The notes beneath the pieces are model-generated. The model did not search any database, had not been told where the DNA came from, and saw nothing but the letters and a program-made list of their open reading frames with translations. 33,711 nucleotides of DNA, from NCBI GenBank assembly GCA_902826255.1, contig CADEEC010000014.1, positions 2,480-36,190 on the forward strand, in the 5' to 3' direction. Positions within the stretch are counted from its first letter, which is position 1. Every line of letters begins with the position of its first letter. The DNA comes from an uncultured Hyphomicrobiales bacterium (GTDB lineage Bacteria; Pseudomonadota; Alphaproteobacteria; Rhizobiales; Hyphomicrobiaceae). Positions 7,013 to 29,886 of the stretch are shown here, piece by piece. The translations under genes and the position numbers were made by a program.

Positions 7013-7015
7013 GGC

Positions 7016-9752: not shown

Positions 9753-9777
9753 GGGCTCCTCTTCCGGTTCTTCTTTG

Positions 9778-9791: not shown

Positions 9792-9796
9792 TTGGT

Positions 9797-9825
9797 ATAT
9801 TCGGACGGTCCATGGCCCTTGTCAA
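9797..9825 (-). promoter_or_regulatory. candidate sigma-70 promoter of the dehydrogenase/ABC operon
   Basis: On the minus strand a perfect -35 TTGACA (9825-9820) is followed after 17 bases by GAATAT (9802-9797). A neighbouring TATACC offers an alternative -10 at longer spacing. Transcription would start around 9790, inside the LacI-type operator. The -35 is strong and the -10 is weak. Confidence 0.5.
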
Positions 9826-9863
9826 TCGGAAAGGGCCGATCGAGGCAGAGAGGGATCACGTTC

Positions 9864-10919: not shown

Positions 10920-10922
10920 CTT

Positions 10923-12212
10923 CTACCGAAGCTCGGGATAGAGCTGTCGCGGCAGCCAAAGGCTGATCTCGGGAACGTATGTGACGACAGCCAGGCTGAA
11001 CAAAGCCAGCGCCAGCCAAGGCAGCACGGCGCGCACGACGGTCAGGTAGGACTTGTCGAATGTTCCGCTCGCTACAAACAGGTTGAGCCCGAACGGCGGC
11101 GTGATGTTGCCGATGTCGACATTGACCGTCATCACGACGCCGAAGTGCGTGCCGGAAATACCGGCTGCGGTGACCATTGGCAGCAGGATCGGCACCAGGA
11201 TCAGCAAATTGGAGAACACGTCGACGAACATGCCGGCGATCAGGCTGAGCACGTTGACGAATAGCAGCGTCTGCTCGGGCGACGAGCGAAGGTCGGAGAA
11301 CGGCTCGACCACCGCATGAGTCGTGCCCGATATGGTGAGCATCCAAGAGAATACACTGGCTGCGCCGACCATAATCAGGATGCGTGCACTTGCGAGCCCC
11401 GACTCCACACAGACTTCCCATAGCGCGGAGATGGTGAGCTGGCGGTACACGAAGATGCACACGAACGCTGCGTATACCACCGATACGGCGGCCGCCTCGG
11501 TGGCGGTGAACACCCCGCCGTAGATGCCGCCGAGTATGATCGCCGGCATGCCAAGCCCCCACCACACATCGCGAGCTGCCTGAACGATGTCGGCAAGTGA
11601 CGCACGGGGTGCACGCGGTACTTTGTTGAGGATCGCCCAGATCACGCAATAGGTGCCGTAAACGAGTGCGAAAAACAGGCCGGCGCCGATGCCTGACATG
11701 AACAAGGCGCCGATCGACACGTTGGCAATGGCGCCGAAGACGATCATGGCATTGCTAGGGGGAATGATCATCCCGATCAGCGCCGAGCTGGTGACGACAC
11801 CAAGCGCGAAGCGCTCGCCATAGCCCGCCTTGACGAGGGCCGGATAGAGAATTCCACCGACGGCCACGATGGTCGAGGCGCTGGAGCCTGTGATGGCGCC
11901 AAACAGGACGCACGTTATGACCACGGTGACGCCGAGGCCGCCGGGCCAGTGTCCGACGAGGCTCTGGATGAAGTTGATCAGTCGCGTCGACAAGCCTCCG
12001 CGACCCATGATGTTCGCCGCAAGGATGAAGAAGGGGATAGCAAGGAGCGGGAAGCTTTCGAGTCCCGCAAAGGCCCGTTGCGGCAGTATCGATAGGGGGA
12101 TGGGCGAAGTCAGCGCAAAAACCAGAAACGCCGTGCCTGTGAGCACGATGAACATCGGGATCGTCAGGAACAGACCCAACGCCAGCAGCGAAAACATCAA
12201 CGCGATGGTCAT
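10923..12212 (-). CDS. TRAP transporter large permease (DctM family), system 1
   Basis: Large membrane subunit (429 residues) of a tripartite ATP-independent periplasmic transporter, which moves organic acids into the cell with a sodium gradient. It is hydrophobic throughout with family-typical segments: PLLAIPFFILAANIMGRGGLSTRLINF near the N-terminus, GSSASTIVAVGG, MIIPPSNAMIVFGAIA, and the C-terminal NVDIGNITPPFGLNLFVASG. It is the last gene of the TRAP1 P-Q-M set, 33 bases after the small permease. No catabolic gene sits directly with TRAP1 apart from the upstream TPR, PhnD-like and FAD-oxidoreductase genes. Confidence 0.93.
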   Translation of the reverse strand: MTIALMFSLLALGLFLTIPMFIVLTGTAFLVFALTSPIPLSILPQRAFAGLESFPLLAIPFFILAANIMGRGGLSTRLINFIQSLVGHWPGGLGVTVVITCVLFGAITGSSASTIVAVGGILYPALVKAGYGERFALGVVTSSALIGMIIPPSNAMIVFGAIANVSIGALFMSGIGAGLFFALVYGTYCVIWAILNKVPRAPRASLADIVQAARDVWWGLGMPAIILGGIYGGVFTATEAAAVSVVYAAFVCIFVYRQLTISALWEVCVESGLASARILIMVGAASVFSWMLTISGTTHAVVEPFSDLRSSPEQTLLFVNVLSLIAGMFVDVFSNLLILVPILLPMVTAAGISGTHFGVVMTVNVDIGNITPPFGLNLFVASGTFDKSYLTVVRAVLPWLALALFSLAVVTYVPEISLWLPRQLYPELR

Positions 12213-12245
12213 GCCCTGCTTTCCCCGAAGCCCGCTTGTGACCCG

Positions 12246-12755
12246 TTAGTCCTGCAAATCCATGGCGAACTTCTCGTCTTTGGTGCTCTCGCGCAGGAGT
12301 CGCACGGTGAGCTGGCATGTCCGCACGAACATCAAGGCGCTGCCCGCGGGCATCGCCAGGTAGGCGAGCCACATCGGCGCCTGCATAACCGGGGTCACCT
12401 GCCCGATTGAGCGCACCCGCAGAGTGTGCTGGCCGCTGTAGTAAAAGAACACGGCGAAGAACACGAGCATCACCAGCGCAATAAAAATCGCCAGCCGATG
12501 ACGGCCAGCCGGCGACAGGGCGAGCGGAAACAGGTCTATTGCGATATGGCCGCGCGTGCGGATCGCCACGCTCGATCCGACAAATACGATCCACGCCATC
12601 ATGTAGAGGGTCAGCTCCTCCGCCCAGGAGATCGGGGCGAGGAACCAGTAGCGCAACACCACATTGACGAAGAGGAGCAGGCTGGCAAACGCCATCGCCG
12701 CTCCAACGAACGTGGTTTCTGCCCAGCAAAGAGCGCGATCTAGCCGTGCGAGCAA
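12246..12755 (-). CDS. TRAP transporter small permease (DctQ family), system 1
   Basis: Small membrane subunit of 169 residues with four hydrophobic segments: around AAMAFASLLLFVNVVLRY, LYMMAWIVFVGSSVAI, LAIFIALVMLVFFAVFFYY, and MWLAYLAMPAGSALMFV. It shows the family signature of an Arg-Tyr after helix 1 and ISWAEELT, with TRGHIAIDL after helix 2. The start is a TTG at 12755 with GGAG about 8 bases upstream; no ATG offers a full first helix. It lies between the binding-protein gene (36 bases upstream) and dctM. Confidence 0.9.
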   Translation of the reverse strand: MLARLDRALCWAETTFVGAAMAFASLLLFVNVVLRYWFLAPISWAEELTLYMMAWIVFVGSSVAIRTRGHIAIDLFPLALSPAGRHRLAIFIALVMLVFFAVFFYYSGQHTLRVRSIGQVTPVMQAPMWLAYLAMPAGSALMFVRTCQLTVRLLRESTKDEKFAMDLQD

Positions 12756-12791
12756 GTTACCAGCTCCGCTCTTGCGCAGTCGGACCGTTGA

Positions 12792-13790
12792 CTACTTTGC
12801 TTGCACGTAGCGGCGGATCAGATCGAGCGTCTCTGTGCCGAACTTCGCTGTGTACCACTCATAGACGGGCCGAGATGCCTTCTCGAACTCGGCGCGCTGT
12901 TCCGGCGTAAGGGTGACGATTTCAATGCCTGCCTTTTTGAAGGTCTCGAGATGGACAACCTCTGCCTTCTGGATGAGCTCTCGCTGATACTTGCTGGCTT
13001 CCCTGGCGGAGTTCACGAGCACATCGCGCTGGTCTGCCGGCAGCTTGTCGAGGAAGGGCTTGTTGATCATGAACACGTAGGCGATGAAGCCGTGGTCGCT
13101 CAACGTGAGATGCTTTTGAACCTCGAAGAACCGCATAGCGGCAATCGTCGCAATCGGGTTCTCCTGCCCATCCACGACCTTCTGTTGCAGGGCGCTGTAA
13201 AGCTCACTGAAGTTGATCATTGTCGGCACTGCGCCGAACGCCTTGAACTGCTCCTGGATCACAGGCGCAGGCATCGTGCGGATCTTGGTGCCCTTGTAGT
13301 CAGACGGCTGGCGGATCGCGAAGTTGCCGGTGAACTGCTTGAAGCCGGACTCCCAGAATGCCACGCCCTTGATGTTCACCTTCTCCAAGGGCTGCATGAT
13401 CGCTTCGCCGGCAGGGCCGTCGATCACCCGGTGCGCGGTCGCGCGATCGGGAAACAAGAAAGGCAGGTCGAGCACCTGTAAGCTGGGTGCGAGCGGTGCC
13501 GCCCAAGCCGTCGGCAGGATGGAAACCTCGAGCGCGCCGGCCTGCGTCTGCTCCACCATCTGCACACCACTGCCGAGCTGGCTCGACGGGAACACCTGCA
13601 CCTTGAGCTTGCCGCCGGTGCGCTGCTCGACCAGCTCCTTCCATTTCAGTGCGGCTTGGTGGTGCGTGCTGGAGTCAGGCTGGTCATGGCCGACCTTGAT
13701 GGTCTGGGCCACCGCGGTGCTCACGAGAAAACCTGCCGCAAGAATGAATGATGCCGCCGCAGAGAGCGTACGAGAATACCACGAATGCAT
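12792..13790 (-). CDS. TRAP transporter substrate-binding protein (DctP family), system 1
   Basis: Periplasmic receptor of 332 residues with a Sec signal peptide (hydrophobic core AAASFILAAGFLVSTAVA, cleavage near AVAQ). The mature protein starts TIKVGHDQPDSSTHHQAA. The ligand-binding signature of DctP proteins is present: the conserved Arg in KIRTMPAPVIQEQFKAFGA, followed by PTMINFSELYSALQQKVVDG and QENP. This Arg normally salt-bridges a substrate carboxylate, so the ligand is probably a carboxylic (or sulfonic) acid. GAGGGG precedes the ATG by about 7 bases, and a separate promoter is likely in the 104-base gap upstream. Confidence 0.93.
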   Translation of the reverse strand: MHSWYSRTLSAAASFILAAGFLVSTAVAQTIKVGHDQPDSSTHHQAALKWKELVEQRTGGKLKVQVFPSSQLGSGVQMVEQTQAGALEVSILPTAWAAPLAPSLQVLDLPFLFPDRATAHRVIDGPAGEAIMQPLEKVNIKGVAFWESGFKQFTGNFAIRQPSDYKGTKIRTMPAPVIQEQFKAFGAVPTMINFSELYSALQQKVVDGQENPIATIAAMRFFEVQKHLTLSDHGFIAYVFMINKPFLDKLPADQRDVLVNSAREASKYQRELIQKAEVVHLETFKKAGIEIVTLTPEQRAEFEKASRPVYEWYTAKFGTETLDLIRRYVQAK

Positions 13791-16565: not shown

Positions 16566-18314
16566 CTATGCGGAGCGGAAATTGAGATCGCTGTTGTCCA
16601 GTCCACGCCCAGTGATTGCCTGCAACTGAATGGCGGAGAAGTCCGGGTGATCGACGCCCACATTATTTGTCCATGCAAGTGGTATGCCCGACCCGGCTAG
16701 AGTGCATTGAAATGCCACTCTTGAGCCGGAGTCGCTGCAGACGCTTGCTGGCGTTTCGTTACGATCGAGGCAGAACGCTGCGAGTGTCCCGGCGGCTTCC
16801 CCGATGTTCCACTCAACGGGATGAAGACGGAAGCATCCGTTCGTAATGTGCGTCGTGCCGATGTTCTTGGCCGCTGCCAGCAGATTGACGATGCGGACCG
16901 GTATCAGCGCTCCCATCGGAATCTGGAACGGCCGAGTTCTGCAGCTGATGCCCACGTCTTCCGGTCCGGAACGATGGATGTCGATAGGATACCAGCCCAC
17001 ACCGACCGAATCCTCGAAATGCGCGGCGCGCGGCCCTGCTTGATGTTCGACGGAGACGTCCTGTTCGACAACGGTGCGCAATGACTTGATGCGCCTGGAC
17101 TCGCGGATATAGGGAAACTTCGCCAGGCCATCCGGCGTGCCCATGATGCCGGGGCTCAGCCTTAGCTCTGGCGCTCCGCGGCGGGAGCCTGTAGCCGGTG
17201 CTTCCGTCTGGAGCCAATAAAGGAAACCGAGACTGACACGCTTGGCGTCCTGCAAGGCGGCAGCCATCTGCGAGGCGGAGACATCGATGATGGTCGACTC
17301 ACGGTAGTCGTTGCCCGGCCAGTTGATCATCGACAGGTCGGTCTGAGAACGAGACCCCAGAAGCTTGCTGTCGACAAGGCGCCGGTATGTCCATAGCCCG
17401 CCCTTCGTACCGGGCATGGTGTCGTAGAGCCTGTAGTCCAGCCAGCCGCTCTCCTCCCCGTAAATCTCGCCTCCGTGAACCTCAATTTTCAAGCTGTAGG
17501 GCTGCGAGTTGCGGAAGAAGTCGTAGCGGGCGGGCTGCGGAATAACGTGGCTCTCGCCATCGGGTCGCCGCTCAAGCCCGAAGACATAGGTGAAGCTCTG
17601 CACGCAGTGCGGCATCGCCGTCCTTGGCTGGGCGTGCGGCTCGTCTGTGTCCGCCATTGTTTCTGCGCCGTTGACATATTCGGCGCCAGCGAGCGGCAGC
17701 AGGTCGCCGAGTTCGGTCGCATCGAGAACCATGGCAGGCTTGAAGCGAAGAACTGGGCTGCTGGATAGCGGGATGGCTGTCACCGCAACGATCCGGTCGT
17801 TTATCGTTTCGACGGCCGCGGTCTTGGTCCTCAAATGAATGGTCAACCGACCTTGCGCGATATGCGGCTCCAGCATGGCCATCATTGCATCAACGGCCAC
17901 CTTCGGCTCGAAGGCGACGCGAGTCACCCAGCAGTTGCCGGGATTGAAGTGCGGCTGCTGGCCGGCCGATCCTGCGTATGGCCGGTAGTGATCTCGCAAA
18001 GCTCTACGCAGGGCATAGTAACTCGCCGTGCCGCCGAACTCCTCGATATGTGCGTGCTCGTCGAGTGCGGAAATTCCCTGCGCGGTCAGCTGCCCGCCGA
18101 TCCAATCCGTCTCCTCGATCAGGTGTACGCGCTTGCCTGCGCGCGCCGCTGCGAGCGCAGCGGCAACACCGCCGGTGCCGCCACCGGCGATAAGCACGTC
18201 GCACTCGATCTCGAGTGCGTCGGACAGGTTCGGCACACGCACAACTGCAATGGAGGGGTCGCCGTCCGCCGGCACGCGCATGACATCCACGACTTCCTCG
18301 AGAGCTCGAAGCAT
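16566..18314 (-). CDS. FAD-dependent oxidoreductase (FAD_oxidored, PF12831-like)
   Basis: A 582-residue flavoprotein. The dinucleotide-binding motif is at residues 39-64 (DVLIAGGGTGGVAAALAAAR then HLIEE), followed by DWIGGQLTAQG. Near the C-terminus is the second FAD-contact region KNIGTTHITNGCFRLHPVEW followed by NIGEAAGTLAAF, the characteristic end of PF12831 proteins. About 38 residues precede the Rossmann motif and do not look like a signal peptide, so it is probably cytoplasmic. It starts only 3 bases after the stop of the TRAP2 dctM gene, so it is very likely translated from the same mRNA and acts on the TRAP2 solute or a product of it. The exact substrate is unknown; the family includes many uncharacterised dehydrogenases. 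Confidence 0.88.
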   Translation of the reverse strand: MLRALEEVVDVMRVPADGDPSIAVVRVPNLSDALEIECDVLIAGGGTGGVAAALAAARAGKRVHLIEETDWIGGQLTAQGISALDEHAHIEEFGGTASYYALRRALRDHYRPYAGSAGQQPHFNPGNCWVTRVAFEPKVAVDAMMAMLEPHIAQGRLTIHLRTKTAAVETINDRIVAVTAIPLSSSPVLRFKPAMVLDATELGDLLPLAGAEYVNGAETMADTDEPHAQPRTAMPHCVQSFTYVFGLERRPDGESHVIPQPARYDFFRNSQPYSLKIEVHGGEIYGEESGWLDYRLYDTMPGTKGGLWTYRRLVDSKLLGSRSQTDLSMINWPGNDYRESTIIDVSASQMAAALQDAKRVSLGFLYWLQTEAPATGSRRGAPELRLSPGIMGTPDGLAKFPYIRESRRIKSLRTVVEQDVSVEHQAGPRAAHFEDSVGVGWYPIDIHRSGPEDVGISCRTRPFQIPMGALIPVRIVNLLAAAKNIGTTHITNGCFRLHPVEWNIGEAAGTLAAFCLDRNETPASVCSDSGSRVAFQCTLAGSGIPLAWTNNVGVDHPDFSAIQLQAITGRGLDNSDLNFRSA

Positions 18315-18317
18315 GCG

Positions 18318-19634
18318 TCAGTGGGCCATGGTGCTGGGCAGCCAAAGCGCTATTTGAGGGAACGAGGTGACAAGCGCGAGGACTGCGAATTGAATGATGA
18401 GGTAAGGCCAGATCGACCCGAATATGTGACTGAGCGTAATGCCCGGCGGCGTGACACCTTTGAGATAGAAGGCCGCGGGTCCGAACGGCGGCGAGATGTA
18501 TGAGATCTGCATGTTGAGACAGAACAGCGCGCCGAGCCAGACGAGATCAAAGCCGAGCTTTTCTGCGATCGGAACAAAGATCGGCGCCGTCAGGAACAGG
18601 ATGCCGATCCAATCGATAAAGCAGCCGAGTATGATCCAGATCGCCTGGAACATGATGATGATGTAGATCGGCTCAAGCGGCAGCGACGTCATCGTGTCCT
18701 GGATCAGCTTGGTACCGCCTGCGAGCGTGTAGACACCGATCAGCGCGGACGAGCCGAAGAACAGCCAGTAGAGCATGACCGTGACCTTGGTCGTCTCCTC
18801 GATGGCGTGGCGCACGTTGGCGAGCGACAAGCGGCCGTTGACGATCATGGCGAGGATCGCACCGACGACGCCAACGCCTGCAGCCTCGGTGGGCGTCGCT
18901 ATGCCGAGGTAAAGCGAACCGAGCACCATCAGGGCGACAAAGCCCGGGATGATCAGCTCCTTGAGCAGCGCCAACTTCTCGCTCAAGGGACGCTGGCGTT
19001 CATGCAGCGGCGCCGGCGGCGCAAGCTCGGGTGATATCCAGCAACGAATGATGATGTAGGCGCAGTAGGACCCGGCGAGGAGCAGTCCAGGAACCACGCC
19101 CGCCATGTATAGCTGGCCGATGGAAACGCCGGCTGTCAGCCCGTAGAGGATGAATACCACGCTTGGTGGTATAAGGGTCGCTAGGCCGCCACCGGCGCAG
19201 ATGCTACCGAGGGCAATCTTCTTGTCGTAGCCGCGGCTGAGCATGGCCGGCAGCGCAATCACGCCCATGGTGACGATCTCGGCGCCGATGACACCCACCA
19301 TCGTGGCCATCAGCGCGCACGAGAAGATGACGGCCACAGCCAGGCCGCCGGGAACGCCGCCGAACCAGACGTGCACCGCTCGAAAAATGGCGTCCGCAAC
19401 GCCCGCACGTTCCAGAACGCACGCCATGAAAATGAACAGCGGCACGGAGACGAGCACGTAGTTGCCCATCAACGTGAACACGCGGCTGACGACAAGAGTC
19501 AGGCCCGGAAGGCCGAACAAGGCGTAGGCGAACACGACTGCCACCGCGCCCGTCGCGAATGCGAGCGGCACACCTGCCAGCAAGATAACGATAAAGACAA
19601 CGACGAAGAGGAGGCTGAGAAGCTCGATGCTCAT
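18318..19634 (-). CDS. TRAP transporter large permease (DctM family), system 2
   Basis: 438-residue large membrane subunit of the second TRAP system, with family motifs VLVSVPLFIFMACVLERAGV, MVGVIGAEIVTMGVIALPAM, ATLIPPSVVFILYGL and the C-terminal LNMQISYISPPFGPAAFYLK. Its start overlaps the dctQ2 stop by 4 bases, and its stop is 3 bases before the FAD oxidoreductase start. It is clearly different in sequence from the system 1 DctM, so the two TRAP sets are not a recent duplication. Confidence 0.93.
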   Translation of the reverse strand: MSIELLSLLFVVVFIVILLAGVPLAFATGAVAVVFAYALFGLPGLTLVVSRVFTLMGNYVLVSVPLFIFMACVLERAGVADAIFRAVHVWFGGVPGGLAVAVIFSCALMATMVGVIGAEIVTMGVIALPAMLSRGYDKKIALGSICAGGGLATLIPPSVVFILYGLTAGVSIGQLYMAGVVPGLLLAGSYCAYIIIRCWISPELAPPAPLHERQRPLSEKLALLKELIIPGFVALMVLGSLYLGIATPTEAAGVGVVGAILAMIVNGRLSLANVRHAIEETTKVTVMLYWLFFGSSALIGVYTLAGGTKLIQDTMTSLPLEPIYIIIMFQAIWIILGCFIDWIGILFLTAPIFVPIAEKLGFDLVWLGALFCLNMQISYISPPFGPAAFYLKGVTPPGITLSHIFGSIWPYLIIQFAVLALVTSFPQIALWLPSTMAH

Positions 19635-20194
19635 GGGGTCCGCTCGGCCTCAGGCACGACGCCCATTTCGCGGGCGAGATTGACGATGCCTTGCAGCAGG
19701 AGCAACAGGCCAGCGAGGGGGATGGCGGCCTTCACCGGCCATATCGGCGGGTTCCATGGCGTACCGGTGCCCTCCGATTGCAGGAACGATGACCATGCCA
19801 TCTGCGTGCCGATCCATACGAGGGCGCCGACGTAGAGGGCGAAGCAAATAAAGCTGATCAGGTCGGCAATCATTTTGAGGCGAGGCGGCAGCACGCCATA
19901 GACGAGATCGATGCGTACGTGCCCCCTTTTCAGGAGCGCATAGCCTCCGCCCAAAAGGTATGTGACTGCCGAAAGGTAGACGGTGGTCTCGTTTGCCCAG
20001 ACTGTAGCCCGGCCGAACAGGCCGCGGGCCACGACTTCGTAGAGGATTGCGAAGGTAACGATGATGATGGACGCGCCCCAGAAACGGGCGACCCACGTGT
20101 TGATACCATCGACCGCGGCGCAGAAAGCCGCAAACGCACCGCCCTGCGGCCGCCGTCCCCCACCGGCCACAGGGCGCCCCTCGGCTGGGCTCAT
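19631..20194 (-). CDS. TRAP transporter small permease (DctQ family), system 2
   Basis: 187-residue small membrane subunit with four hydrophobic segments, for example FWGASIIIVTFAILYEVVAR, TTVYLSAVTYLLGGGYALL and LISFICFALYVGALVWIG. The family feature KRGHVRIDLVYGVL lies in the middle. The N-terminal 25 residues are Gly/Arg-rich. It overlaps dctP2 by 4 bases upstream and dctM2 by 4 bases downstream, giving tight translational coupling of the three TRAP2 subunits. Confidence 0.92.
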   Translation of the reverse strand: MSPAEGRPVAGGGRRPQGGAFAAFCAAVDGINTWVARFWGASIIIVTFAILYEVVARGLFGRATVWANETTVYLSAVTYLLGGGYALLKRGHVRIDLVYGVLPPRLKMIADLISFICFALYVGALVWIGTQMAWSSFLQSEGTGTPWNPPIWPVKAAIPLAGLLLLLQGIVNLAREMGVVPEAERTP

Positions 20195-21237
20195 GCAACG
20201 ACGCCCAGGTCCTTGAGCCAGGCGAGCTGGGAGTCATAGGCTTGTTTGGCAAGCGGTGTCTTCTTGGACCAGTCTTCCCACGTCTTAACGGCGAGCGCTC
20301 GCATCTTGGTCATCTGGGCGTCGTCCCAGGTCGTGTATTTGACACCCTTACTGGCGAGCTCCTTCAGCACGCGTACGTCGTCAACGGCCACGCGCTGCAC
20401 CTGATCCCACGTCCACTCCCGGGTGGTGGAGTGCACGATGGCCTTGACGTCATCAGGCAAGGCTTTCCACGCTGCCAGGTTGACCGTGAATTCCTGCACC
20501 GGCATGGAATGGAAAATCTTGGTGGGGTGCTTGGCGACGCCGTGGAAGCCCATTCGTTCGTTCATGGAGACCGATCCCCAGTCAGCGGCGTCTACAACCC
20601 CTTTGTCGAGCGCCGAGAACACCTCTCCGCCTGGCAGAACGACGATGGAGGCGCCGAGTTTGGTCAGAATTTCCGCTGTCATGCCTTGGGGCGAGCGGAA
20701 CTTGACTCCTTTGAAGTCATCCAGTGTGTTGATCGCCTTCTTCGAAACGATGGTTTCTACCCCCCACCAGCTCACGCCGACCGGATAGGCGTTGTACTTG
20801 GCATAAGCCTCGCGCAGCATCTGCAGGCCGCCGCGATGCTGAAACCAAGCCTCCGCCTGATGCGGATGCTGATAGCCGAACACAAAATCGCTTATGACCG
20901 CTAAGCCTGCATCCTTGCCGCTGAAGTAGCCGGGCCAGGACGAATGAGCCTGCAACACGCCGGCAGTCACCGCATCGAGGGTCTCGAATGCACCCGTGAC
21001 GGCTCCAGCCGCGAACGGCTCTATGACGAGGCGGCCGTTGGTGTTGACTTTCAGCCGTTCGCAAAAATCCTGAAAGGCTTTGTAAGTCAACTCTGCGGCG
21101 CTCCACATGGACTGGCATCGCCACCGCGTGACCTGTTGGGCCCGCAGCACCGTGGGCGCGGCGACCAAGCCTGCCGCTGCCGATGCGCCTACGGCCGACG
21201 ATTTCAGGAATCCACGCCTGCTGGTGGTGATGGTCAT
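20191..21237 (-). CDS. TRAP transporter substrate-binding protein (DctP/TakP-like), system 2, Tat-exported
   Basis: 348-residue periplasmic receptor. The N-terminus is a twin-arginine signal (TSRRGFLKSSAVGASAAAGL, cleavage near VLRAQQ), unlike the Sec signal of system 1. The mature domain contains VTRWRCQSMWSAAELTYKAF, the binding signature GVKFRSPQGMTAEILTKLGA, and GGEVFSALDKGVVDAADWGS. These resemble the TakP group that binds 2-oxo acids, often with a cation. TGGGAGGAG lies about 6 bases before the ATG. It is the first gene of the TRAP2/FAD-oxidoreductase run, with a putative GntR operator 56-72 bases upstream. Confidence 0.92.
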   Translation of the reverse strand: MTITTSRRGFLKSSAVGASAAAGLVAAPTVLRAQQVTRWRCQSMWSAAELTYKAFQDFCERLKVNTNGRLVIEPFAAGAVTGAFETLDAVTAGVLQAHSSWPGYFSGKDAGLAVISDFVFGYQHPHQAEAWFQHRGGLQMLREAYAKYNAYPVGVSWWGVETIVSKKAINTLDDFKGVKFRSPQGMTAEILTKLGASIVVLPGGEVFSALDKGVVDAADWGSVSMNERMGFHGVAKHPTKIFHSMPVQEFTVNLAAWKALPDDVKAIVHSTTREWTWDQVQRVAVDDVRVLKELASKGVKYTTWDDAQMTKMRALAVKTWEDWSKKTPLAKQAYDSQLAWLKDLGVVA

Positions 21238-21389: not shown

Positions 21390-22157
21390 TTACAAGCGGC
21401 CGGTGACGGTCGCCCGCGTCAGCTCCTCGACGTAGTCCATGAGCCGGTCGGTGGCGGCGACGGCCTCTTTTTCGTCGCCGACCACAACGGCCCGGACGAC
21501 CTCGGCGTGGTGCCTCGTTGCCGTCGCGATGTCGCGAACTTGGCGATAGTGCAGGTAGTAGAAGCGGCGCGACATGGCATAACAAGGCATCACCGCCCGC
21601 GCGACGAAGGGGTTCCTGGCGCAACTTGCAAGAAAGTTTTTCAACTCATAGTGCTGGCGGAGGTACGACAGAACATCATCCTCGTCGTCTCCGAACGTCT
21701 CCAACCGCTCCGCCATCTTGAGCAGCTGCGAGCGCTCTCCGGCGGTGCTCCGACGGGCGGCATCTGCAGCAATCAGGCGATCCAGCGCACGTCGCAGGTC
21801 GAGCAGCAGCAACTGCTCCACCACATTGATCTCGGTGATCTGCGCGCCGTGGCGCGGAAGAATGCGGACCAGATGATCTCTCTCGAGCCGCTGCAGAGCT
21901 TCGCGCACCGGTGTGCGGCCAATTCCGAGCTTCAGGCTGAGCTCGGCCTCCGACCAGATACTGCCCGGCGAGAGCTCGAGGGAAACGATCATCTCCTCCA
22001 GGCGCGTATGGGCTAGGTCGGAAAGCCCTGAATGCTCGCCGCCCCCCATTCCGCGCTGGGTCGGCGACCGTTCCGGTTTCGCTGGGGACTTCCCTGGAGG
22101 CCTTGTGGCGGCGCGGGTCTTGAGGCGTCCCGAGCGGGAGTGCGAGGCTCGCGTCAT
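21390..22157 (-). CDS. GntR-family transcriptional regulator, FCD subfamily
   Basis: 255-residue regulator. A basic, probably disordered N-terminal tail of about 45 residues (RSGRLKTRAATRPPGKSPAK) is followed by a winged helix at about residues 48-112 (WSEAELSLKLGIGRTPVREA, LQRLERDHLVRILPRHGAQI). An all-helical FCD effector domain follows (LDLRRALDRLIAADAARR ... ATRHHAEVVRAVVVGDEKEA). FCD domains usually bind carboxylic acids, often through a metal. The start is taken at the ATG at 22157; a TTG at 22205 would add 16 residues and run closer to the operator. It lies divergent from phyH and upstream of TRAP2, and the two shared motifs suggest it regulates both. Confidence 0.9.
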   Translation of the reverse strand: MTRASHSRSGRLKTRAATRPPGKSPAKPERSPTQRGMGGGEHSGLSDLAHTRLEEMIVSLELSPGSIWSEAELSLKLGIGRTPVREALQRLERDHLVRILPRHGAQITEINVVEQLLLLDLRRALDRLIAADAARRSTAGERSQLLKMAERLETFGDDEDDVLSYLRQHYELKNFLASCARNPFVARAVMPCYAMSRRFYYLHYRQVRDIATATRHHAEVVRAVVVGDEKEAVAATDRLMDYVEELTRATVTGRL

Positions 22158-22217
22158 CAATATCTCGCGGCTTGCGATTTGCTTCAGCGAGTCTAGCGCG
22201 GCCAACGTCGGGATGCT

Positions 22218-22263: not shown

Positions 22264-23097
22264 ATGACGAAGATATTGTCGGAGCAAGCGGTCGAGTCGT
22301 TCCGCCGCGACGGCTACTATTTTCCTGTTCCAGTTCTTTCGTCCGCGGAAGTCTCCCGCTACCGCAGCTCCCTGGAAGAGCACGAGGCCCACACGGGCGC
22401 ACCCTTGCAGGGCAACTGGCGGCACAAGGCGCATCTGCTCTTCACCTGGGTCGACGAACTCGTTCATCACCCCAAGATCGTCGATGCGGCAGAAGATGTC
22501 CTCGGCCCGAACCTCCTCTGCTGGACGACTAATTTCTTCATCAAGGAGGCGAACAGCCCGGGCTTCGTTTCCTGGCACCAGGACGCTTTCTATTGGGGCT
22601 TGAGCAAGGACGACGTTGTTACGGCCTGGGTGGCGCTCTCCCCCGCCAATCTCCAAAGCGGGTGCATGAAGTTCGTGCCCGGCTCGCAGACGCAAGAGCA
22701 TATCGAGCACGTCGACACCTTCCATAAGGACAATCTGTTGTCTCGCGGTCAGGAGATTGCCGTGAAGGTGGACGGCGAAAGGACGGTCGATTGCATTCTC
22801 AATGCGGGCGAGATGTCCCTCCATCACGTCAAGCTCGTGCACGGCTCCGAGCCCAACCGTTCCAACGACCGGCGCATCGGCTTGGCGATCCGCTACATTC
22901 CGACCGATCTCAAGCAGCTCAAGGTTCGCGACTCGGCAACGCTGGTCCGCGGTGTCGACAAGCATGGCAACTTCGATCTGGAGCCGCGGCCCAAGCGCGA
23001 CCTCGACGACGCGGCGCTTGCCGCGCACACCGATGCCGTCGAGCGGCAAGTGAAGGCGCTGTATTCGGGAACGGACAAAGCGGCGTTCCGCGCCTGA
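22264..23097 (+). CDS. PhyH-family Fe(II)/2-oxoglutarate-dependent dioxygenase
   Basis: 277-residue oxygenase of the phytanoyl-CoA dioxygenase family, which hydroxylates small substrates using Fe(II), O2 and 2-oxoglutarate. The facial triad is visible as His105-x-Asp107 in SWHQDAFYWGL and the distal His193 in LVHGSEPNRSNDRRIG. Arg204, 11 residues after the distal His, is placed to bind 2-oxoglutarate. The protein begins in the usual way with a helix and GYYFPVPVLS. It is the first gene of a two-gene unit with the PanB-like gene (48-base gap), divergent from gntR. Related enzymes act on phytanoyl-CoA, ectoine, phosphonates and chlorinated or hydroxylated acids; the substrate here is unknown. 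Confidence 0.9.
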   Translation: MTKILSEQAVESFRRDGYYFPVPVLSSAEVSRYRSSLEEHEAHTGAPLQGNWRHKAHLLFTWVDELVHHPKIVDAAEDVLGPNLLCWTTNFFIKEANSPGFVSWHQDAFYWGLSKDDVVTAWVALSPANLQSGCMKFVPGSQTQEHIEHVDTFHKDNLLSRGQEIAVKVDGERTVDCILNAGEMSLHHVKLVHGSEPNRSNDRRIGLAIRYIPTDLKQLKVRDSATLVRGVDKHGNFDLEPRPKRDLDDAALAAHTDAVERQVKALYSGTDKAAFRA

Positions 23098-23145: not shown

Positions 23146-24015
23146 ATGGCCGAGGAACGCAAACGCCTGACCGTGCCTGACCTCAAGGCGCGCAAGAAAG
23201 CCAACGAAAAAGTCGTGATGGTTTCAATACCGGACTTCCCGTCTGCGGTTTGGGCCGAACGGGCCGGTATCGACATCGCGGCAGTGGGCGACTCGCTCGG
23301 GATGACCAACTACGGCCATCCCAATACGCTGCCCGTGACGGTCGACATGATGATCAATCACGCACAGGCGGTCCGCCGCGGTGCGCCCAACTGCATGGTG
23401 CTGGTTGCGATGCCCTATGGCAGCTACGCGACCGAGCACATCGGCGTCACCAATGCCCTGCGCATCATGAAGGAGGGCGGTGCCGACGTCGTCAAGATGC
23501 AGGGCGGCAAGGAGAAAGCCCCGATCATCAAGGCCATTGCCGACGCCGGCGTGCCGGTGATGAGCCACGTCGGTATGTGTCCGCACTTCATGCATCTCTA
23601 CGGTGGGTTCAAGCTGCAGGGAAAGACGGCCGACGAAGCCATGCGCATTATCGAGGACGGCATGGCGATCGAAGCCGCGGGGGCGTGCGGCTTTGAGATC
23701 GAAGCGGTGCCGGCCCCGGTGGCGAAGGCCGTGGACGATGCCGTCGACATCTTCACGTTCGGCATCGGCGCAGGATCTGCGAGCTGTGGCCAGCTGCTCC
23801 TAGGCTATGACCTGCTCGGCGTGTTCGACCAGTTCAAGCCGAAGTTCACCAAGCGCTACGCAGAGCTCTCCCGGGTCGCCGTGGAAGGCCTGAAGGCCTA
23901 TGCGGCGGAGGTCCGCAGCGGCACGTTCCCGGATGCAGAGCACGCCTATTCCATGAAAGCTGAGGAGGTCGAGAAGCTTCAAGTCGCGGTACGCAAACTG
24001 CCGAAGCGGACGTAG
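23146..24015 (+). CDS. PanB-like protein (ketopantoate hydroxymethyltransferase family paralogue with altered active site)
   Basis: 289 residues, close to PanB in length and fold (PEP mutase/isocitrate lyase superfamily barrel). Strong family matches are VGDSLGMTNYGHPNTLPVTV, AVRRGAPNCMVL, and GIGAGSASCGQ. Comparing with my memory of E. coli PanB, Asp45 is kept (Asp49), as are the Lys in VVKMQGG (Lys117), His136 (His141) and Glu181 (Glu186). However, Mg ligand Asp84 is Ala88 (VLVAMPYG) and Mg ligand Glu114 is Gln119. The family's N-terminal TAYD is SIPD here. So normal metal-dependent hydroxymethyl transfer is doubtful. No panC or panD is adjacent; the neighbours are a dioxygenase, a GntR gene and a TRAP system. 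It is probably a neofunctionalised catabolic lyase or aldolase-like enzyme. Confidence 0.82.
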   Translation: MAEERKRLTVPDLKARKKANEKVVMVSIPDFPSAVWAERAGIDIAAVGDSLGMTNYGHPNTLPVTVDMMINHAQAVRRGAPNCMVLVAMPYGSYATEHIGVTNALRIMKEGGADVVKMQGGKEKAPIIKAIADAGVPVMSHVGMCPHFMHLYGGFKLQGKTADEAMRIIEDGMAIEAAGACGFEIEAVPAPVAKAVDDAVDIFTFGIGAGSASCGQLLLGYDLLGVFDQFKPKFTKRYAELSRVAVEGLKAYAAEVRSGTFPDAEHAYSMKAEEVEKLQVAVRKLPKRT

Positions 24016-24310: not shown

Positions 24311-24440
24311 AGCCGTGGTCACACGCGAGCATGTCGATCGGGGTGTATCGGCAGTAGACTGACCAGAGGGGTTTCAACTCCGCTGGACGGCCTTCGTTCG
24401 CGGTGACGTGCCACTGCCGTCGCGTCGAGGTCTTTTTCCA

Positions 24441-26429
24441 ATGCCAGTTCGTTTTTCCCTCAGAGGAGGTATCCTCTGTGCCGTAGCATCGCTTGCCAGC
24501 TCGTCATTCTGGTCGGAAGCAAGCGCACAACAAGCCGTAACCTATGAGCTTCCGGGACTTGTCGTCGAGAGCGCTCCCCGCAAAGCCCCCGTGCGTCAGA
24601 AGGCGGAGAGTTCGACAGGCGTCGATCCGGAGGACGTCGTCGTCAGCCCCACGACGCTTGCCACCAAGAGTGAGCAGACCGCAAGCGCCGTAACCGTCAT
24701 CACCGGCGAGCAGCTGCAACGCATGCAGCAGCGCACCGTCGCCGATGCGCTGCGCACCGTTCCGGGATTGAGTGTCGTGCAGACCGGCGGCCTCGGAGGG
24801 CAAACGGCGGTTTTTACACGCGGAACGAACGCCAACCAGACCAAGGTTTTCATCGACGGCATCGACGTCGGTGACGCCAGCACGCCTAGCGGCGCGGTCG
24901 ACCTTGCGCACATCATGACTGCGGACGTCGAGAGGATAGAAGTGCTGCGCGGACCGCAAGGCGGCCTCTACGGCTCCGGCGCACTCGGTGGGGTGATCTC
25001 GATCATCACCAAGCAGGGCAAAGGCCCGCCGAGGATCACGGGGTTCGTCGAGGGCGGCTCATTCGGCACCTTCAATCAGGCGTTGGGTGTGAGCGGGTCG
25101 AAGGGGCCGTGGACTTACGCCTTCAACGTTACCCACTTCCGCAGCACCGATACGCCCGTCACGCCGCTCGAGCTTTTGCAGCCCGGCCAAGTCCGGCACA
25201 ATGATTTCTACGACAACTGGACCTACTCGACCCGGCTGGGGCTCGAGGTTTCCAAACAACTCCAGCTGAATGTGGTTGCCCGGCACACCGACGCCAACCT
25301 GCGCTTCACCGAAGGTTTCGGCCCACTCGAGGACATCCAGAGCTCGACCGACATCAGGCAAACATTCTTGCGCGGCGAGGCGGTGGTGACGCTGCTTGAC
25401 GGTGCGTTCAAGAACTACTTCGGCAGCACCTACAGCGAGCAGCGCCGGTTGAACGAGACGCCCGTCGGTTTCAACCGTCCGCTTTATGACGGCGACCATG
25501 AAAAGTACGACTGGAAAGGCGTCGCAACCGTTGCGCCGGGCCAGGTCGTCGTGATGGGAGTGGAAACCAGGACGGATAGGCTGTTCGCCGCAAGAAGCAT
25601 CGATGGCTTCAGCGCGCCGGTCAGCGCCGAACAGGCCAACCACGCCGGCTACATCGAACTGCAATCGCAGATCGGCAAGCGCATGCTTGTGGTCGCCAAC
25701 GCGCGTCGCGATGCCAACGAAGACTTCGGGAACGCCACGACGTGGCGTCTTGCTTCCAGCTACATCTTGCCTGGCAGCGAGACAAAACTGCGGGCGAGCG
25801 TCGGCACCAGCTTTCGCGCGCCAAGTCTCTGGGAGCTGTACAATCCGTTTGGCTCCCCAGACCTGAGCGCAGAGCGCGGCATGGGTTACGACGTCGGCTT
25901 CGAGCAGCCGCTCTTCAACGACAAAGTCAGAGTGGGGGCGACATACTTCTACAATGAAGTAAAAGATCTAATCGGCTTCGATCCCAACACGTTCGCGTCG
26001 ATAAACATCGATCATGTGCAGATATCGGGTGTCGAGATTTTTGCTTCCTGGGCGGTTGCACCCAACTTGGCCCTCCGAACGGACTACACCTACACGGACG
26101 TGGACGTTCTCGTGGGGCCTGTCTCGTACCTGCGGCGGCGGCCGCAGCACAAGGTGAGCGGATCGGTGCAGTGGGCACCGACCGACGCGCTCTCGTTCAC
26201 GACCACGCTCATCTACGTGGGGGATCGCCCAGACGCGGGCCGGTTTGGCGGTTCGGTGATCGCGCCGTCCTATACGGTTGTGAACCTCGCGGTCGACTAC
26301 AAGCTCAATGAGACCATGACCCTCTACGGCCGGGTCGACAATTTGTTCGACGAGCAATACCAGGATCCGAGCGGGTGGCTGCGGCCGGGACTCGGTGTCT
26401 TCGGAGGCATCCGCTTTGCTACCCCTTAG
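24441..26429 (+). CDS. btuB: TonB-dependent outer-membrane receptor, vitamin B12 transporter BtuB-type
   Basis: 662-residue outer-membrane receptor that takes up cobalamin with energy from TonB-ExbBD. The start is the ATG at 24441, with GAGGT about 9 bases upstream; a GTG 33 bases earlier would spoil the signal peptide. The N-terminus is a Sec signal (RGGILCAVASLASSSF, cleavage near EASA-Q). A TonB-box-like stretch YELPGLVVESAP follows. The plug domain shows VTVITGEQLQRMQQRTVADA, LRTVPGLSVVQTGG, VFIDGIDVGD and VEVLRGPQGGLYGSGALGG-type motifs. The rest is a beta barrel ending in a DNLFDEQYQDPSGWLRPGLG-type last-strand region, though the final residues are RFATP rather than a terminal Phe. The cobalamin riboswitch directly upstream strongly supports B12 as ligand. 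No other B12 transport or salvage gene is in the window. Confidence 0.95.
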   Translation: MPVRFSLRGGILCAVASLASSSFWSEASAQQAVTYELPGLVVESAPRKAPVRQKAESSTGVDPEDVVVSPTTLATKSEQTASAVTVITGEQLQRMQQRTVADALRTVPGLSVVQTGGLGGQTAVFTRGTNANQTKVFIDGIDVGDASTPSGAVDLAHIMTADVERIEVLRGPQGGLYGSGALGGVISIITKQGKGPPRITGFVEGGSFGTFNQALGVSGSKGPWTYAFNVTHFRSTDTPVTPLELLQPGQVRHNDFYDNWTYSTRLGLEVSKQLQLNVVARHTDANLRFTEGFGPLEDIQSSTDIRQTFLRGEAVVTLLDGAFKNYFGSTYSEQRRLNETPVGFNRPLYDGDHEKYDWKGVATVAPGQVVVMGVETRTDRLFAARSIDGFSAPVSAEQANHAGYIELQSQIGKRMLVVANARRDANEDFGNATTWRLASSYILPGSETKLRASVGTSFRAPSLWELYNPFGSPDLSAERGMGYDVGFEQPLFNDKVRVGATYFYNEVKDLIGFDPNTFASINIDHVQISGVEIFASWAVAPNLALRTDYTYTDVDVLVGPVSYLRRRPQHKVSGSVQWAPTDALSFTTTLIYVGDRPDAGRFGGSVIAPSYTVVNLAVDYKLNETMTLYGRVDNLFDEQYQDPSGWLRPGLGVFGGIRFATP

Positions 26430-26622: not shown

Positions 26623-29600
26623 ATGTCGGAAGGGGAGCGCGAAGGGGCACAGGCCGTCCTGCCGGACGCGCGCGCGCGCGCCGCCGGCAGCGACCGCATG
26701 CGTGCGTTCATCGCCTACAGCCGCGAGGACCTCGATTTTGCCGAGCAACTCGCGACCGGTCTCGACCTCTACGGCTTCGCGCCGCTGATCGACAGGGCGC
26801 GTAGCGCCGGTGGCGAAGCATGGGAGCGCCAGGTCGCCGAACTGATCCGGGACGCCGACACGGTGGTGCTCGTCGTCTCGCCGCACGCTGCAAATTCGCG
26901 CGTATGCGCGTGGCAGGTGGATCAGGCCAACCTGTTCCACAAGCGCGTCATCCCGGTTGCGTGCAAGCCGCTCGATGATGCCGCCGCCGCCCGCAGCCTG
27001 CAGGACCTCAACCACATCGTCTTCTATGCGGACCCGCGCGTGCCCGGCTCGGGCTTCGGGTCCGGCATGGCGCGCCTCGTGCAGACGCTCAACGTCGATC
27101 GCGACTGGCTGCGTGGGCACACGCACCTCCTGCAGCGCGCGATGGCCTGGGACGCTGCGGGGCGGCCGGCCAATCAGGTGCTGCTGGGTGGGGATGTCGC
27201 TGAGGCGAAGGCGTGGGTCGCGCGCAAGCCGAGCGGGGGGCCGGAGCCGACCGAGCTGCATCTCGACTTCATCCGTGCCAGTGAGATCGAAGGCGAAAGC
27301 CTCAAGCACTCCGAGCGCCAGCGCCTGGAAGGGATGGCGGCGGCGCACGCTGAGCGCGCCCAGCAACTGCGGGCCGCAGAACAGGCGAGCCGGAGACGCG
27401 TCGGCTATCGGGTCGCCGTATTTGGCGTGCTGCTGTTGGCGGGCATCAACGCGGCAACCTTGGCGTGGTTCAACTACAACAAGCGGCAATTGGCCCTGGC
27501 GGATGCCCGCCACTGGACAGCCGAGACCAAGCGCGCGGAAGGCGAGACGGTAGCCGCCCATGCCAACACGGCGCGGACGCAGGCCACGCTGGACAGAGTG
27601 GAAGCGGAGAAGCGGCGTACCGAGGAAGAGCTGGGCAAGGTGCAGTCGGCGCAGTCGCGCTTTCTCGCCAAGCAGGCACTCGATGCGCTGCGGGGGCACG
27701 ATTTCACCAGGGCGGCGCTGCTGGCGCTCGAGGCGCTGCCGGGCGCAGGCAGCGGCGACGCACGGCCGATCGTCGCCGGGGTGCCGGCCATCCTGTACCA
27801 AGCGCTGGGCTTGCTGCGCGAGCGGTCGGTGCTGACAGGGCACACGCATCCGATCGCCAGCGTCGCGCTCAGTTCCGACGGCAAGCGCATCGTCACGGGC
27901 TCGCACGACAGCACGGCACGGCTGTGGAACGCGGAGACCGGCAGGCAGATCGAGCTTCTCAAGGGGCACACCAGCCGCGTTGCCAGCGTTGCCTTCAGCC
28001 CGGACGGCAAGTTGATCGTCACGGGGTCGTACGACAGTACGGTTCGGCTTTGGGACGGCGACAAGGGGCGTGAGGTCTCGCAGCTCAAGGGTCATGCCGG
28101 GCTGGTGGTCGGCGCGGCCTTCAGCGCGGACGGCGCCCGCATCATCACCGCTTCCTACGACGGCACGGCGCGCATATGGGATGTCGCCAACGGTACCGAA
28201 GTCGCCGTGCTCAAGGGCCATGGCGCGCAGGTGGTGGGCGCAGCGCTGAGCCCGGACGGCAAGCGCGCGGCGACCGCCTCGTGGGACGGCACCGGGCGCC
28301 TTTGGGATCTCGAGACCGGCAAATCGATCGTTCTCAAGGGTCATGCGGGCCGTGTGGTCAGCGTGGCGTTCAGCGCCGACGGCAAGCGCGTCGCGACCGC
28401 GTCCGCCGACACCACGGCGCGCGTGTGGGATGCGCAGTCGGGCAAGGAATCCTTCGCGGTGAAGGGCCATGAAGGGGCGGTCGTCACCGCACTGTTCGAT
28501 CCGAACTCGATACGGCTGCTGACGGTCTCTGCCGACGGCACGGGGCGCCTGTGGGAGCTGGGGAAGGGCAAGGAAGCTGGCGTTCTCAAGGGCCACTCCG
28601 GCGAGATACTCAGTGCGGCCTTCAACTCGGATGGCTCGAGCATCGTCACGGCGTCCTCGGACCAGACCGCGCGCGTGTGGGATGTGCGGTCGGTCAAGGA
28701 AACGGCGGTGCTGAGGGGGCACTTCGGCGGCGTGCTCGGCGCCGCCTTCAGCCCTGACGACACGCGCGTCGTGACCGTGTCCGAGGACACCACCGCGCGG
28801 GTTTGGGATGCGCAGCCTGCCAAGGGAGTCATCTTGCTGCGCGGCCATGGCAGCGAAGTCGCCGGCAGCGCATTCAGTACCGACGGCAAACGCATCGTCA
28901 CCGCCTCCAACGACAACACCGCGCGCGTGTGGGATGTCGAGTCGGGCGAGGAGCTTGCGTTGATGCAGGGGCACTCGGGCGAAGTGGCCGCCGCCGCGTT
29001 CAGCCCGGACGGCAGGCGTGTGGCGACGGCGTCCTACGACAGCACCGTGCGCTTCTGGGATTCGCTGTCGGGAAAGCAGATCGCCATCCTGCAGGGTCAT
29101 TCGGGCGCCGTGCAGAGCGCCGCCTTCAGCCCGAATGGCAAGCTGCTGCTGACGGCATCCTATGATCGCACCGTGCGCCTGTGGGACGCTGGCAACGGCG
29201 AGGAGCTCGGCGTCAAGCGCGGCTACAGCCGCGGCCTGCGCGACGCCACCTTCAGTCCCGACGGCAGCAAAGGCGTGATCGCCGCGGAGGACGGCACGGC
29301 CCGCATCTGGGATGCGAACTCCGGCAAGGAGCTGCTGGTGCTGAAGGGGCATGTCGCATGGGTGATGAGCGCCGCCTTCAGCGCCGACAACGCCCGCGTC
29401 GTCACCGCCTCGCACGACAACACGGCCCGCATCTGGGATGCGGGCAGCGGCAAGGAGCTGGTCGTGTTGAAGGGTCACGCGGGGTGGGTGATGGGGGCCG
29501 CCTTCAGCCCCGACGGCAAGCGCGTGGTGACCGCCTCCGCGGACCAGACCGCGCGCATCTGGGATGCCAACACCGGTGACGAGATAGCAATACTGCGTGG

Positions 29601-29886
29601 GCACGTGCGCGGCGTGCGCAGCGCGGCCTTCAGCCCGGACGGCACGCGCGTCGTCACCGGTTCGGTCGATCGCACGGCGCGCATCTGGCCGGTGCAGCCT
29701 GCCGTCTCGATCGCGGACCTGATCGCCGACGCGATTACCCGCCTGCCACGCTGCTTGTATCCGAGCGAGCGCGAAGCTGCGTTCCTCGGCAAGGACAGCC
29801 CGGCCTGGTGCACCGAGGCCGGACGTCCGCCTCACCAGGCCCCGCAAGTGTCGTCCACCACCTCGAAGGCATCGGCGAAGAACTAG
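26623..29886 (+). CDS. TIR-domain / single-pass membrane / 15x WD40-repeat protein
   Basis: A 1087-residue multidomain protein. Residues about 26-140 form a TIR domain (MRAFIAYSREDLDFAEQLA, TVVLVVSPHAANSRVCAW, KRVIPV). In NADase-type TIRs a Glu follows in the S-x-x-C-x-x-E motif; here that position is Gln98 (CAWQVDQA). A charged, coiled-coil-like linker leads to one hydrophobic helix at about 262-284 (VAVFGVLLLAGINAATLAWF) and a second Glu/Lys/Ala-rich coiled coil. Next comes the SRFLAKQALDALRG...ALLALEALPG segment common before such propellers. Residues about 403-1025 hold 15 consecutive WD40 repeats of 42 residues, enough for two beta-propellers (7+8 blades). More positive charge before the helix (SRRRVGYR) predicts TIR inside and WD40 in the periplasm. 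The start ATG has CGGGAG about 7 bases upstream. Probably a sensor or scaffold; its role is unknown. Confidence 0.9.
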   Translation: MSEGEREGAQAVLPDARARAAGSDRMRAFIAYSREDLDFAEQLATGLDLYGFAPLIDRARSAGGEAWERQVAELIRDADTVVLVVSPHAANSRVCAWQVDQANLFHKRVIPVACKPLDDAAAARSLQDLNHIVFYADPRVPGSGFGSGMARLVQTLNVDRDWLRGHTHLLQRAMAWDAAGRPANQVLLGGDVAEAKAWVARKPSGGPEPTELHLDFIRASEIEGESLKHSERQRLEGMAAAHAERAQQLRAAEQASRRRVGYRVAVFGVLLLAGINAATLAWFNYNKRQLALADARHWTAETKRAEGETVAAHANTARTQATLDRVEAEKRRTEEELGKVQSAQSRFLAKQALDALRGHDFTRAALLALEALPGAGSGDARPIVAGVPAILYQALGLLRERSVLTGHTHPIASVALSSDGKRIVTGSHDSTARLWNAETGRQIELLKGHTSRVASVAFSPDGKLIVTGSYDSTVRLWDGDKGREVSQLKGHAGLVVGAAFSADGARIITASYDGTARIWDVANGTEVAVLKGHGAQVVGAALSPDGKRAATASWDGTGRLWDLETGKSIVLKGHAGRVVSVAFSADGKRVATASADTTARVWDAQSGKESFAVKGHEGAVVTALFDPNSIRLLTVSADGTGRLWELGKGKEAGVLKGHSGEILSAAFNSDGSSIVTASSDQTARVWDVRSVKETAVLRGHFGGVLGAAFSPDDTRVVTVSEDTTARVWDAQPAKGVILLRGHGSEVAGSAFSTDGKRIVTASNDNTARVWDVESGEELALMQGHSGEVAAAAFSPDGRRVATASYDSTVRFWDSLSGKQIAILQGHSGAVQSAAFSPNGKLLLTASYDRTVRLWDAGNGEELGVKRGYSRGLRDATFSPDGSKGVIAAEDGTARIWDANSGKELLVLKGHVAWVMSAAFSADNARVVTASHDNTARIWDAGSGKELVVLKGHAGWVMGAAFSPDGKRVVTASADQTARIWDANTGDEIAILRGHVRGVRSAAFSPDGTRVVTGSVDRTARIWPVQPAVSIADLIADAITRLPRCLYPSEREAAFLGKDSPAWCTEAGRPPHQAPQVSSTTSKASAKN
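26667..26680 (+). repeat. (CG)7 dinucleotide tract inside the 5' end of the TIR-WD40 gene
   Basis: Seven uninterrupted CG dinucleotides encode the ARARA stretch at about residues 16-20, between the assigned start (26623) and the next in-frame ATG (26698), which is exactly where the TIR domain begins. Such a tract can form Z-DNA and can slip during replication. A change in repeat number would shift the frame of the long form only. Confidence 0.7.
27832..29700 (+). repeat. tandem 126-bp repeats encoding 15 WD40 blades
   Basis: Fifteen head-to-tail units, each about 126 bp (42 codons); the GH dipeptide codons recur at 27841, 27967 and 28093, exactly 126 bases apart. The consensus blade is KGHxGxVxxAAFSPDGKRVV then TASxDxTARIWDxxxGKE. 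Unit 4 is one codon short (KSIVLKGH), unit 6 lacks the usual FSPDG (FDPNS), and unit 12 has GY instead of GH. Units 13-15 are the most alike, suggesting recent expansion at the 3' end. Confidence 0.92.

Follow-up and report, generated by a model that had tools for sequence, protein, structure and literature searches.

A PanB-like subfamily with altered active-site residues, probably catabolic and encoded beside oxygenase and importer genes

The gene at the centre of this analysis lies in a stretch of 33,711 nucleotides from an uncultured Hyphomicrobiales bacterium (hereafter the window) and encodes a relative of the pantothenate enzyme PanB (EC 2.1.2.11). We conclude that this gene and its closest relatives very probably form a distinct, catabolic subfamily with a task other than pantothenate synthesis. 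The computed evidence consists of a clade of its own, a common set of residue changes, recurrent partner genes, a genomic uncoupling, though incomplete, from pantothenate synthesis, and the subfamily of the associated transport receptor. The distinction has a practical side, since databases label these proteins panB and metabolic models may consequently list a vitamin pathway for genomes without one, as in two single-contig genomes discussed below.

The open reading frame is intact, with an ATG at 23146 and a stop at 24015. In four pairwise comparisons dN (0.137–0.184) was well below dS (0.95–1.27, near saturation), which indicates purifying selection. The encoded protein scores 297 bits against Pfam PF02548 (cut-off 28.7), 262.9 bits against the NCBIfam 'panB' equivalog TIGR00222 (cut-off 207.55) and 288.2 bits against NF001452 (cut-off 272), and because the panB cut-offs are exceeded an automatic pipeline would name the gene panB and assign it to pantothenate biosynthesis. 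An AF2 model (pLDDT 86.1, pTM 0.86) predicts a (β/α)8 barrel of the TIM-barrel family like that of the solved PanB enzymes (PDB 3vav, 1m3u). PanB structures were the best Foldseek matches of the predicted fold (3vav with a TMt of 0.91), with 32–38% identity and TM values of up to 0.92. They were followed by methylisocitrate lyase, 2,3-dimethylmalate lyase and oxaloacetate decarboxylase, which represent the PEP mutase/isocitrate lyase superfamily fold, the two lyases matching with a TM of ~0.55–0.60 and 12–16% identity.

Table 1. Features of the window around the PanB-like gene; genes were called with a simple script rather than a gene finder
Feature	Position	Strand	Basis or remark
PanB-like enzyme (clade 1), 289 aa	23146..24015	+	PF02548, TIGR00222, tree, AF2/Foldseek
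PhyH-family Fe(II)/2-oxoglutarate dioxygenase	22264..23097	+	PF05721, 109.9 bits; 48 bp upstream of the PanB-like gene, same strand
GntR/FCD regulator, divergent	21390..22205	-	PF00392 and PF07729
TRAP solute-binding protein DctP, lactate/alpha-keto-acid type	20191..21237	-	PF03480; nearest solved relative 2zzv
TRAP small permease DctQ	19631..20194	-	PF04290
TRAP large permease DctM	18318..19634	-	PF06808, TIGR00786
FAD_oxidored flavoprotein, possible 2-hydroxyacid or related oxidoreductase	16566..18314	-	PF12831, 291.5 bits
Ala88 codon, E. coli Asp84 position	23407..23409	+	alignment
Gln119 codon, E. coli Glu114 position	23500..23502	+	Q in 57/57 clade rows; E in 30/30 canonical rows
His147 codon, E. 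coli Gln142 position, gained	23584..23586	+	H in 57/57 clade rows; Q in 30/30 canonical rows
Glu184 codon, E. coli Val179 position, gained	23695..23697	+	E in 57/57 clade rows; canonical rows V 29, L 1
Glu186 codon, E. coli Glu181, retained	23701..23703	+	invariant in clade 1, clade 2 and canonical rows

For the comparison of residues, the protein was aligned to E. coli PanB as encoded in NC_000913. Three residues of the E. coli enzyme, Asp45, Asp84 and Glu114, are on the basis of UniProt/HAMAP-type annotation presumably its Mg ligands; our literature search found no paper describing Asp84 and Glu114 in this role. In the window protein Asp84 and Glu114 are replaced by Ala88 and Gln119, and Asp45 is retained as Asp49, as are Lys112, His136 and Glu181 (Lys117, His141 and Glu186, respectively) and Ser46. 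We then sorted 108 distinct PF02548 proteins from the fetched loci by their signature at positions 84 and 114 (E. coli numbering). This gave 28 clade-1 rows, including the window protein, in which position 84 is always A or S and position 114 always Q; 29 clade-2 rows, all with C and Q; 30 canonical rows, all with D and E; and 21 rows with other signatures that are outside these counts and include a frameshift-fused clade-1 copy from locus L032. All 57 rows of the two clades furthermore share the changes Val179 to Glu, Gln142 to His, Leu32 to Trp and Phe87 to Tyr at positions that the canonical rows conserve, and 53 of them have a proline in place of Tyr25.

Judged from these alignments, the active site of both clades is rebuilt rather than just damaged, and the old metal site of PanB has likely been lost. 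Glu184 of the window protein is predicted to lie on strand β6, two positions ahead of the conserved Glu186 on the same strand, and should for this reason point in the same direction as Glu186 but from further inside the barrel. With this glutamate and His147, all 57 rows have acquired two potential ligands that may rebuild a metal site, so the enzyme need not be metal-free. Unless they do so, the loss of Asp84 and Glu114 would speak against simple Mg-chelated α-keto-acid chemistry.

The same grouping emerges from a tree inferred after the trait columns (25, 84, 114, 142 and 179) had been taken out of the alignment. It comprised 69 of the 108 rows, 11 having been left out as long-branched or partial and 28 as near-copies. 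Clade 1 (22 rows), clade 2 (14 rows) and their union each occupy one side of a branch, with SH-aLRT supports of 100, 99 and 98, and the union was also recovered in a FastTree run. Since the clades appear without the trait columns, this confirmation is independent of the residue sorting. The E. coli sequence and a few other rows sit on long branches, and the order among the canonical rows is unsure. Clade-2 members are 51–55% identical and clade-1b members ~61–64%. A scan of contigs yielded 32 loci related to the window gene, most of them 70–83% identical. The subfamily is sparse but widespread: members were found in 13 of 397 genomes of the order (E 1e-80) and, at E 1e-70, in 15 of 385 genomes at class level and 4 of 398 at phylum level, the own genome being included each time and the class and phylum tallies containing three matches of just 42–45% identity that were counted by score. 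Among open-licence PMC full texts we found no title or abstract describing the subfamily or its cluster.

Other offshoots of the PanB family were also encountered. Locus L081 (G005:C106) encodes two divergent PF02548 proteins (7734-8612 and 12205-13116; 28–30% identical) which share 20 kb with a clade-2 member and also lack Asp45, having Pro or Asn instead. PF02548 groups with further signatures, for example Ser84/Met112/Gln114 or Gln136/Thr181, occur in L049, L111, L112, L114 and L108-L110.

Within the window, the PhyH dioxygenase encoded upstream of the PanB-like gene is probably its partner hydroxylase; the nearest solved chain is 6zyk ('Monooxygenase', E 6e-50), which we take to be a β-hydroxylase of a peptide histidine. 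For the flavoprotein at the far end of the group, a search of solved structures gave no informative relative. The neighbourhood was surveyed in 61 clade loci (27 clade-1, 6 clade-1b and 28 clade-2) and 20 canonical panB loci, each spanning ~9 kb on either side where the contig allowed. A single query set, drawn entirely from these same surveyed loci, was searched in all of them, and locus proteins were clustered with a requirement for mutual coverage. L169 and L170 were removed from the counts as duplicates of L013 and L017, and L173/L174 (42–44% identical), L087/L092 (canonical D/E) and the contig-end fragments L038/L039 stand outside the tally.

An oxygenase (PhyH, FA_hydroxylase or Rieske) is present in 50 of the 61 clade loci (24/27 clade-1, 3/6 clade-1b, 23/28 clade-2) against 0/20 canonical loci, and an importer (TRAP or MFS) in 42 (20/27, 0/6 and 22/28, respectively) against 1/20. 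GntR regulators were detected in 14/27 clade-1, 1/6 clade-1b and 24/28 clade-2 loci and in 0/20 canonical ones. PhyH occurs in 24 of the 27 non-duplicate clade-1 loci and FAD_oxidored in 13, and DUF6166 was seen in 21 of the 28 clade-2 loci and nowhere else. In 11 of the 61 loci no oxygenase was detected (e.g. L017, L027, L031), some of the contigs being short. The kind of oxygenase also varies, from PhyH in clade 1 to a membrane FA_hydroxylase, sometimes joined by a second PhyH, in clade 2 and a VanA-type Rieske protein in L127 and L168; such a change of oxygenase around a constant PanB-like gene fits a single chemical task common to all. Genes linking C1 units to folate or corrinoids (corrinoid proteins, nearest to MtgC-type families, pterin methyltransferase, RACo, MTHFR, DMGDH-like, MttB and DmdA-like) are found in 14 of the 61 clade loci and in none of the 20 canonical ones, some of the matches being weak, such as the two to DMGDH or DmdA at 29% identity in the clade-2 loci L128 and L129.

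A near-minimal unit is carried by a named strain, Methylobacterium nodulans ORS 2060, whose plasmid pMNOD02 encodes a GntR regulator, an MFS transporter, a sterol-desaturase-family protein, a hypothetical protein, DUF6166 and an annotated 'panB'. This last protein and the copy on contig C63 of the own genome belong to clade 2, which resembles clade 1 in Gln114, His142, Glu179 and the GntR and importer neighbours but differs from it in Cys84, Asp209 and a membrane FA_hydroxylase partner accompanied by DUF6166 and often by MFS. Both clades occur together in one cluster in L010, L016, L018, L032 and L033. The initial annotation had read from the window that Ala88 and Gln119 replace two Mg ligands with the Asp45, Lys112, His136 and Glu181 equivalents in place, that a 2-oxoglutarate dioxygenase, a GntR regulator and a TRAP importer adjoin the gene, and that automatic annotation would call it pantothenate biosynthesis; alignment, Pfam matches and the panB models, together with the naming of the M. 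nodulans relative, agree on all three points. It had also raised the idea of a separate Ala/Gln clade with conserved phyH/TRAP neighbours, and both the clade and the neighbours are now apparent; the new reaction in the PEP mutase/isocitrate lyase superfamily that it proposed is a possibility.

The importers offer a hint as to the substrate. The window TRAP receptor is nearest to 2zzv (E 1.9e-69), followed by entries for the lactate-binding protein TTHA0766, and by eye its carboxylate Arg and DAAD-motif Asp line up with those of 2zzv. The clade-2 receptor of L138 is nearest to TakP (2hzk, E 3.5e-39), whose pyruvate site, as given in PMC1839085, consists of Arg177, Tyr100, Gln156, Glu214, the Trp215 backbone and Glu240. 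In the HMMER alignment of the L138 receptor, the only one for which these six residues were compared, the Arg, Tyr, Glu and Trp of this published list are by eye kept, with Glu for Gln156 and Gln for Glu240. For both cluster receptors the nearest solved relatives are thus of the TakP/TTHA0766 kind. Taken together, the receptor kinship and the L138 ligand residues make a 2-oxo or 2-hydroxy acid our best guess, and the substrate of PanB itself belongs to this chemical class.

PanB is a tetrahydrofolate enzyme. We tentatively put forward a mechanism in which a 2-oxo or 2-hydroxy acid, once imported, is hydroxylated by an oxygenase and the PanB-like enzyme then removes the resulting hydroxymethyl group, with tetrahydrofolate as the probable acceptor. 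A small monocarboxylic acid of this kind would enter through a TRAP (or MFS) importer, the flavoprotein may set its oxidation state, and the PhyH dioxygenase would hydroxylate one of its methyl groups. The PanB-like enzyme would then run the PanB reaction in reverse, a retro-aldol cutting off the new hydroxymethyl group, which would be passed to tetrahydrofolate as methylene-THF or released as formaldehyde, and the shorter acid left over would enter central metabolism. GntR would regulate the unit, and in the clusters holding both clades two groups could be removed in turn. Here we infer the substrate class, the order of the steps, their direction and tetrahydrofolate as the acceptor. The supported clade, the recurrent oxygenases and importers, the C1 genes, the receptor kinship and the kept equivalents of Lys112, His136 and Glu181 count in favour of this mechanism; against it speak the missing Asp84 and Glu114 ligands, the 11 of 61 loci in which no oxygenase was detected, the minority position of C1 genes (14/61) and, in some clusters, MttB and DMGDH with their hint of N-methyl substrates. 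A reversal of PanB donating a C1 unit from 2-dehydropantoate to THF has been raised as a possibility in PMC7073904, where deletion of panB from an E. coli C1 auxotroph left formaldehyde-dependent growth unchanged, so that reversal in vivo is to be regarded as a possibility and not as a result. Also cited there is a hydroxymethyltransfer that the M. tuberculosis enzyme carries out independently of THF (PMC7073904). A more far-reaching formulation, which we consider rather improbable as a whole, would be an unrecognised aerobic demethylation of carbon-bound methyls, in which any of several unrelated oxygenases would make a CH2OH group on the imported acid. A retro-aldolase descended from PanB, its site rebuilt and perhaps independent of Mg, would transfer this group to tetrahydrofolate, and two oxygenase/PanB-like pairs within one cluster (e.g. 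L010, L018, L033) would strip two methyls in sequence. If the C1-removal reading is true, it would amount to a new methyl-to-folate route and would add an activity to a classic aldolase family.

Other reactions can be accommodated by parts of these data. The presence of MttB (L166/L167) and DMGDH-like proteins (L160, L166, L167) in some clusters suggests N-methyl substrates instead of keto acids, and along with the MtgC-type corrinoid proteins it fits a retro-aldol that releases a larger aldehyde: after β-hydroxylation of an N-methylated or betaine-like acid by the oxygenase, the PanB-like enzyme would cleave between Cα and Cβ, the product, e.g. glycine betaine, going to the nearby demethylases. 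The new aromatic residues Trp32, Tyr87 and Tyr27 could bind a quaternary amine, and the presumed peptide-histidine β-hydroxylase nearest to the window PhyH is also in line with this. However, the minimal clade-2 unit comes without a demethylase and the TRAP receptors are of the lactate/keto-acid type, and we think such a reaction unlikely. A similarly low probability is assigned to a lyase, hydrolase or isomerase of the PEP mutase/isocitrate lyase type which would use neither THF nor a hydroxymethyl group. The common superfamily fold, with the two lyases ranking after PanB, would allow for it, as would the loss of two of the three presumed Mg ligands and the new Glu184 and His147, but the window protein is far closer to PanB than to any lyase in both identity and TM, and Lys112, His136, Glu181 and Ser46 are kept. 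Methylene-THF derived from demethylases might also be condensed with an acceptor by the PanB-like enzyme in a C1-assimilation step. This forward reaction is the normal direction of PanB and the C1-to-THF genes at 14 of the 61 loci could feed it; yet no C1 gene lies in range at the other 47, an oxygenase with an importer and GntR is a catabolic layout, and in the minimal unit the oxygenase step would be the only source of C1, all of which makes it quite doubtful.

Finally, the protein could be an ordinary or weakened PanB still engaged in pantothenate synthesis, as its score above the panB equivalog cut-off and four genomes would allow. The latter (G031, G100, G564 and G844, each at least 90% complete) have panC and no detected canonical panB, and a residual pantothenate role of the PanB-like gene may exist in some of them. 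As a control, 6 of 14 relatives lacking any PF02548 match still carry panC, so that panC is commonly found without a canonical panB in this group. The assembly of the own genome, 86.8% complete, contains four PF02548 genes, namely the window gene, the clade-2 copy on C63 and two canonical copies on C98 and C1, along with panC on C145; the canonical proteins belong to the same Pfam family but have Asp84 and Glu114 and are 38–39% identical to the window protein. A panC match was obtained in 35 of the 38 genomes that hold a clade member, including a spurious one in G853 (22 bits over 49 of 268 positions) that is not a real panC. Unlike PanB proper, the subfamily exists without panC in two single-contig genomes (G659 and G853), in which the PanB-like gene is the only PF02548 member, and the drafts G002 and G006 show the same pattern. 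Together with the rebuilt positions common to all 57 rows, these observations make an ordinary PanB very unlikely. The non-pantothenate reading of the initial annotation is thus supported by the separate clade, the catabolic context, G659 and G853, and the canonical panB genes whose presence elsewhere in the genome it had suggested looking for. Its argument that the gene does not sit with panC is correct as an observation but carries no weight: panC is within range at none of the 61 clade loci and equally at none of the 20 canonical panB loci, which makes its absence uninformative in this lineage, and we rejected distance from panC as evidence. For Pseudomonas putida J5, panB is reported to act in nicotine metabolism via ordinary pantothenate supply (PMC3891541).

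In L010, L014 and L015 the region separating PhyH from the divergent gntR gene contains, upstream of PhyH, a palindrome-like sequence, ACATATTCATGATATGT, which is a candidate GntR operator. The ACATAT...ATATGT palindrome is degenerate in L011, L013, L019 and L026, has a half match in the window, and was not seen by eye upstream of PhyH in L008, L009 and L030. The full unit is kept in L160, from a small single-contig genome of 1.32 Mb (G772), with FA_hydroxylase, PhyH, TRAP, PanB-like, GntR, FAD_oxidored and DMGDH-like genes.

Just downstream of the PanB-like gene (24408-26429, + strand) the window encodes a TonB-dependent receptor most like vitamin B12 receptor models (288 bits against TIGR01779, under its cut-off of 599.7). 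It is of interest as relatives of the PanB-like gene lie near corrinoid proteins, but it is absent from the conserved neighbours found. It is followed at 26623-29886 (+) by a gene for a 1087-aa protein with an N-terminal TIR domain (PF13676, 62 bits, first 326 aa) and then, judged by eye, many WD40-type repeats. A second catabolic cluster at 4067-13790 comprises a sugar-type ABC importer, a LacI regulator, a second TRAP importer and a histidinol-dehydrogenase-family protein (PF00815, 459 bits).
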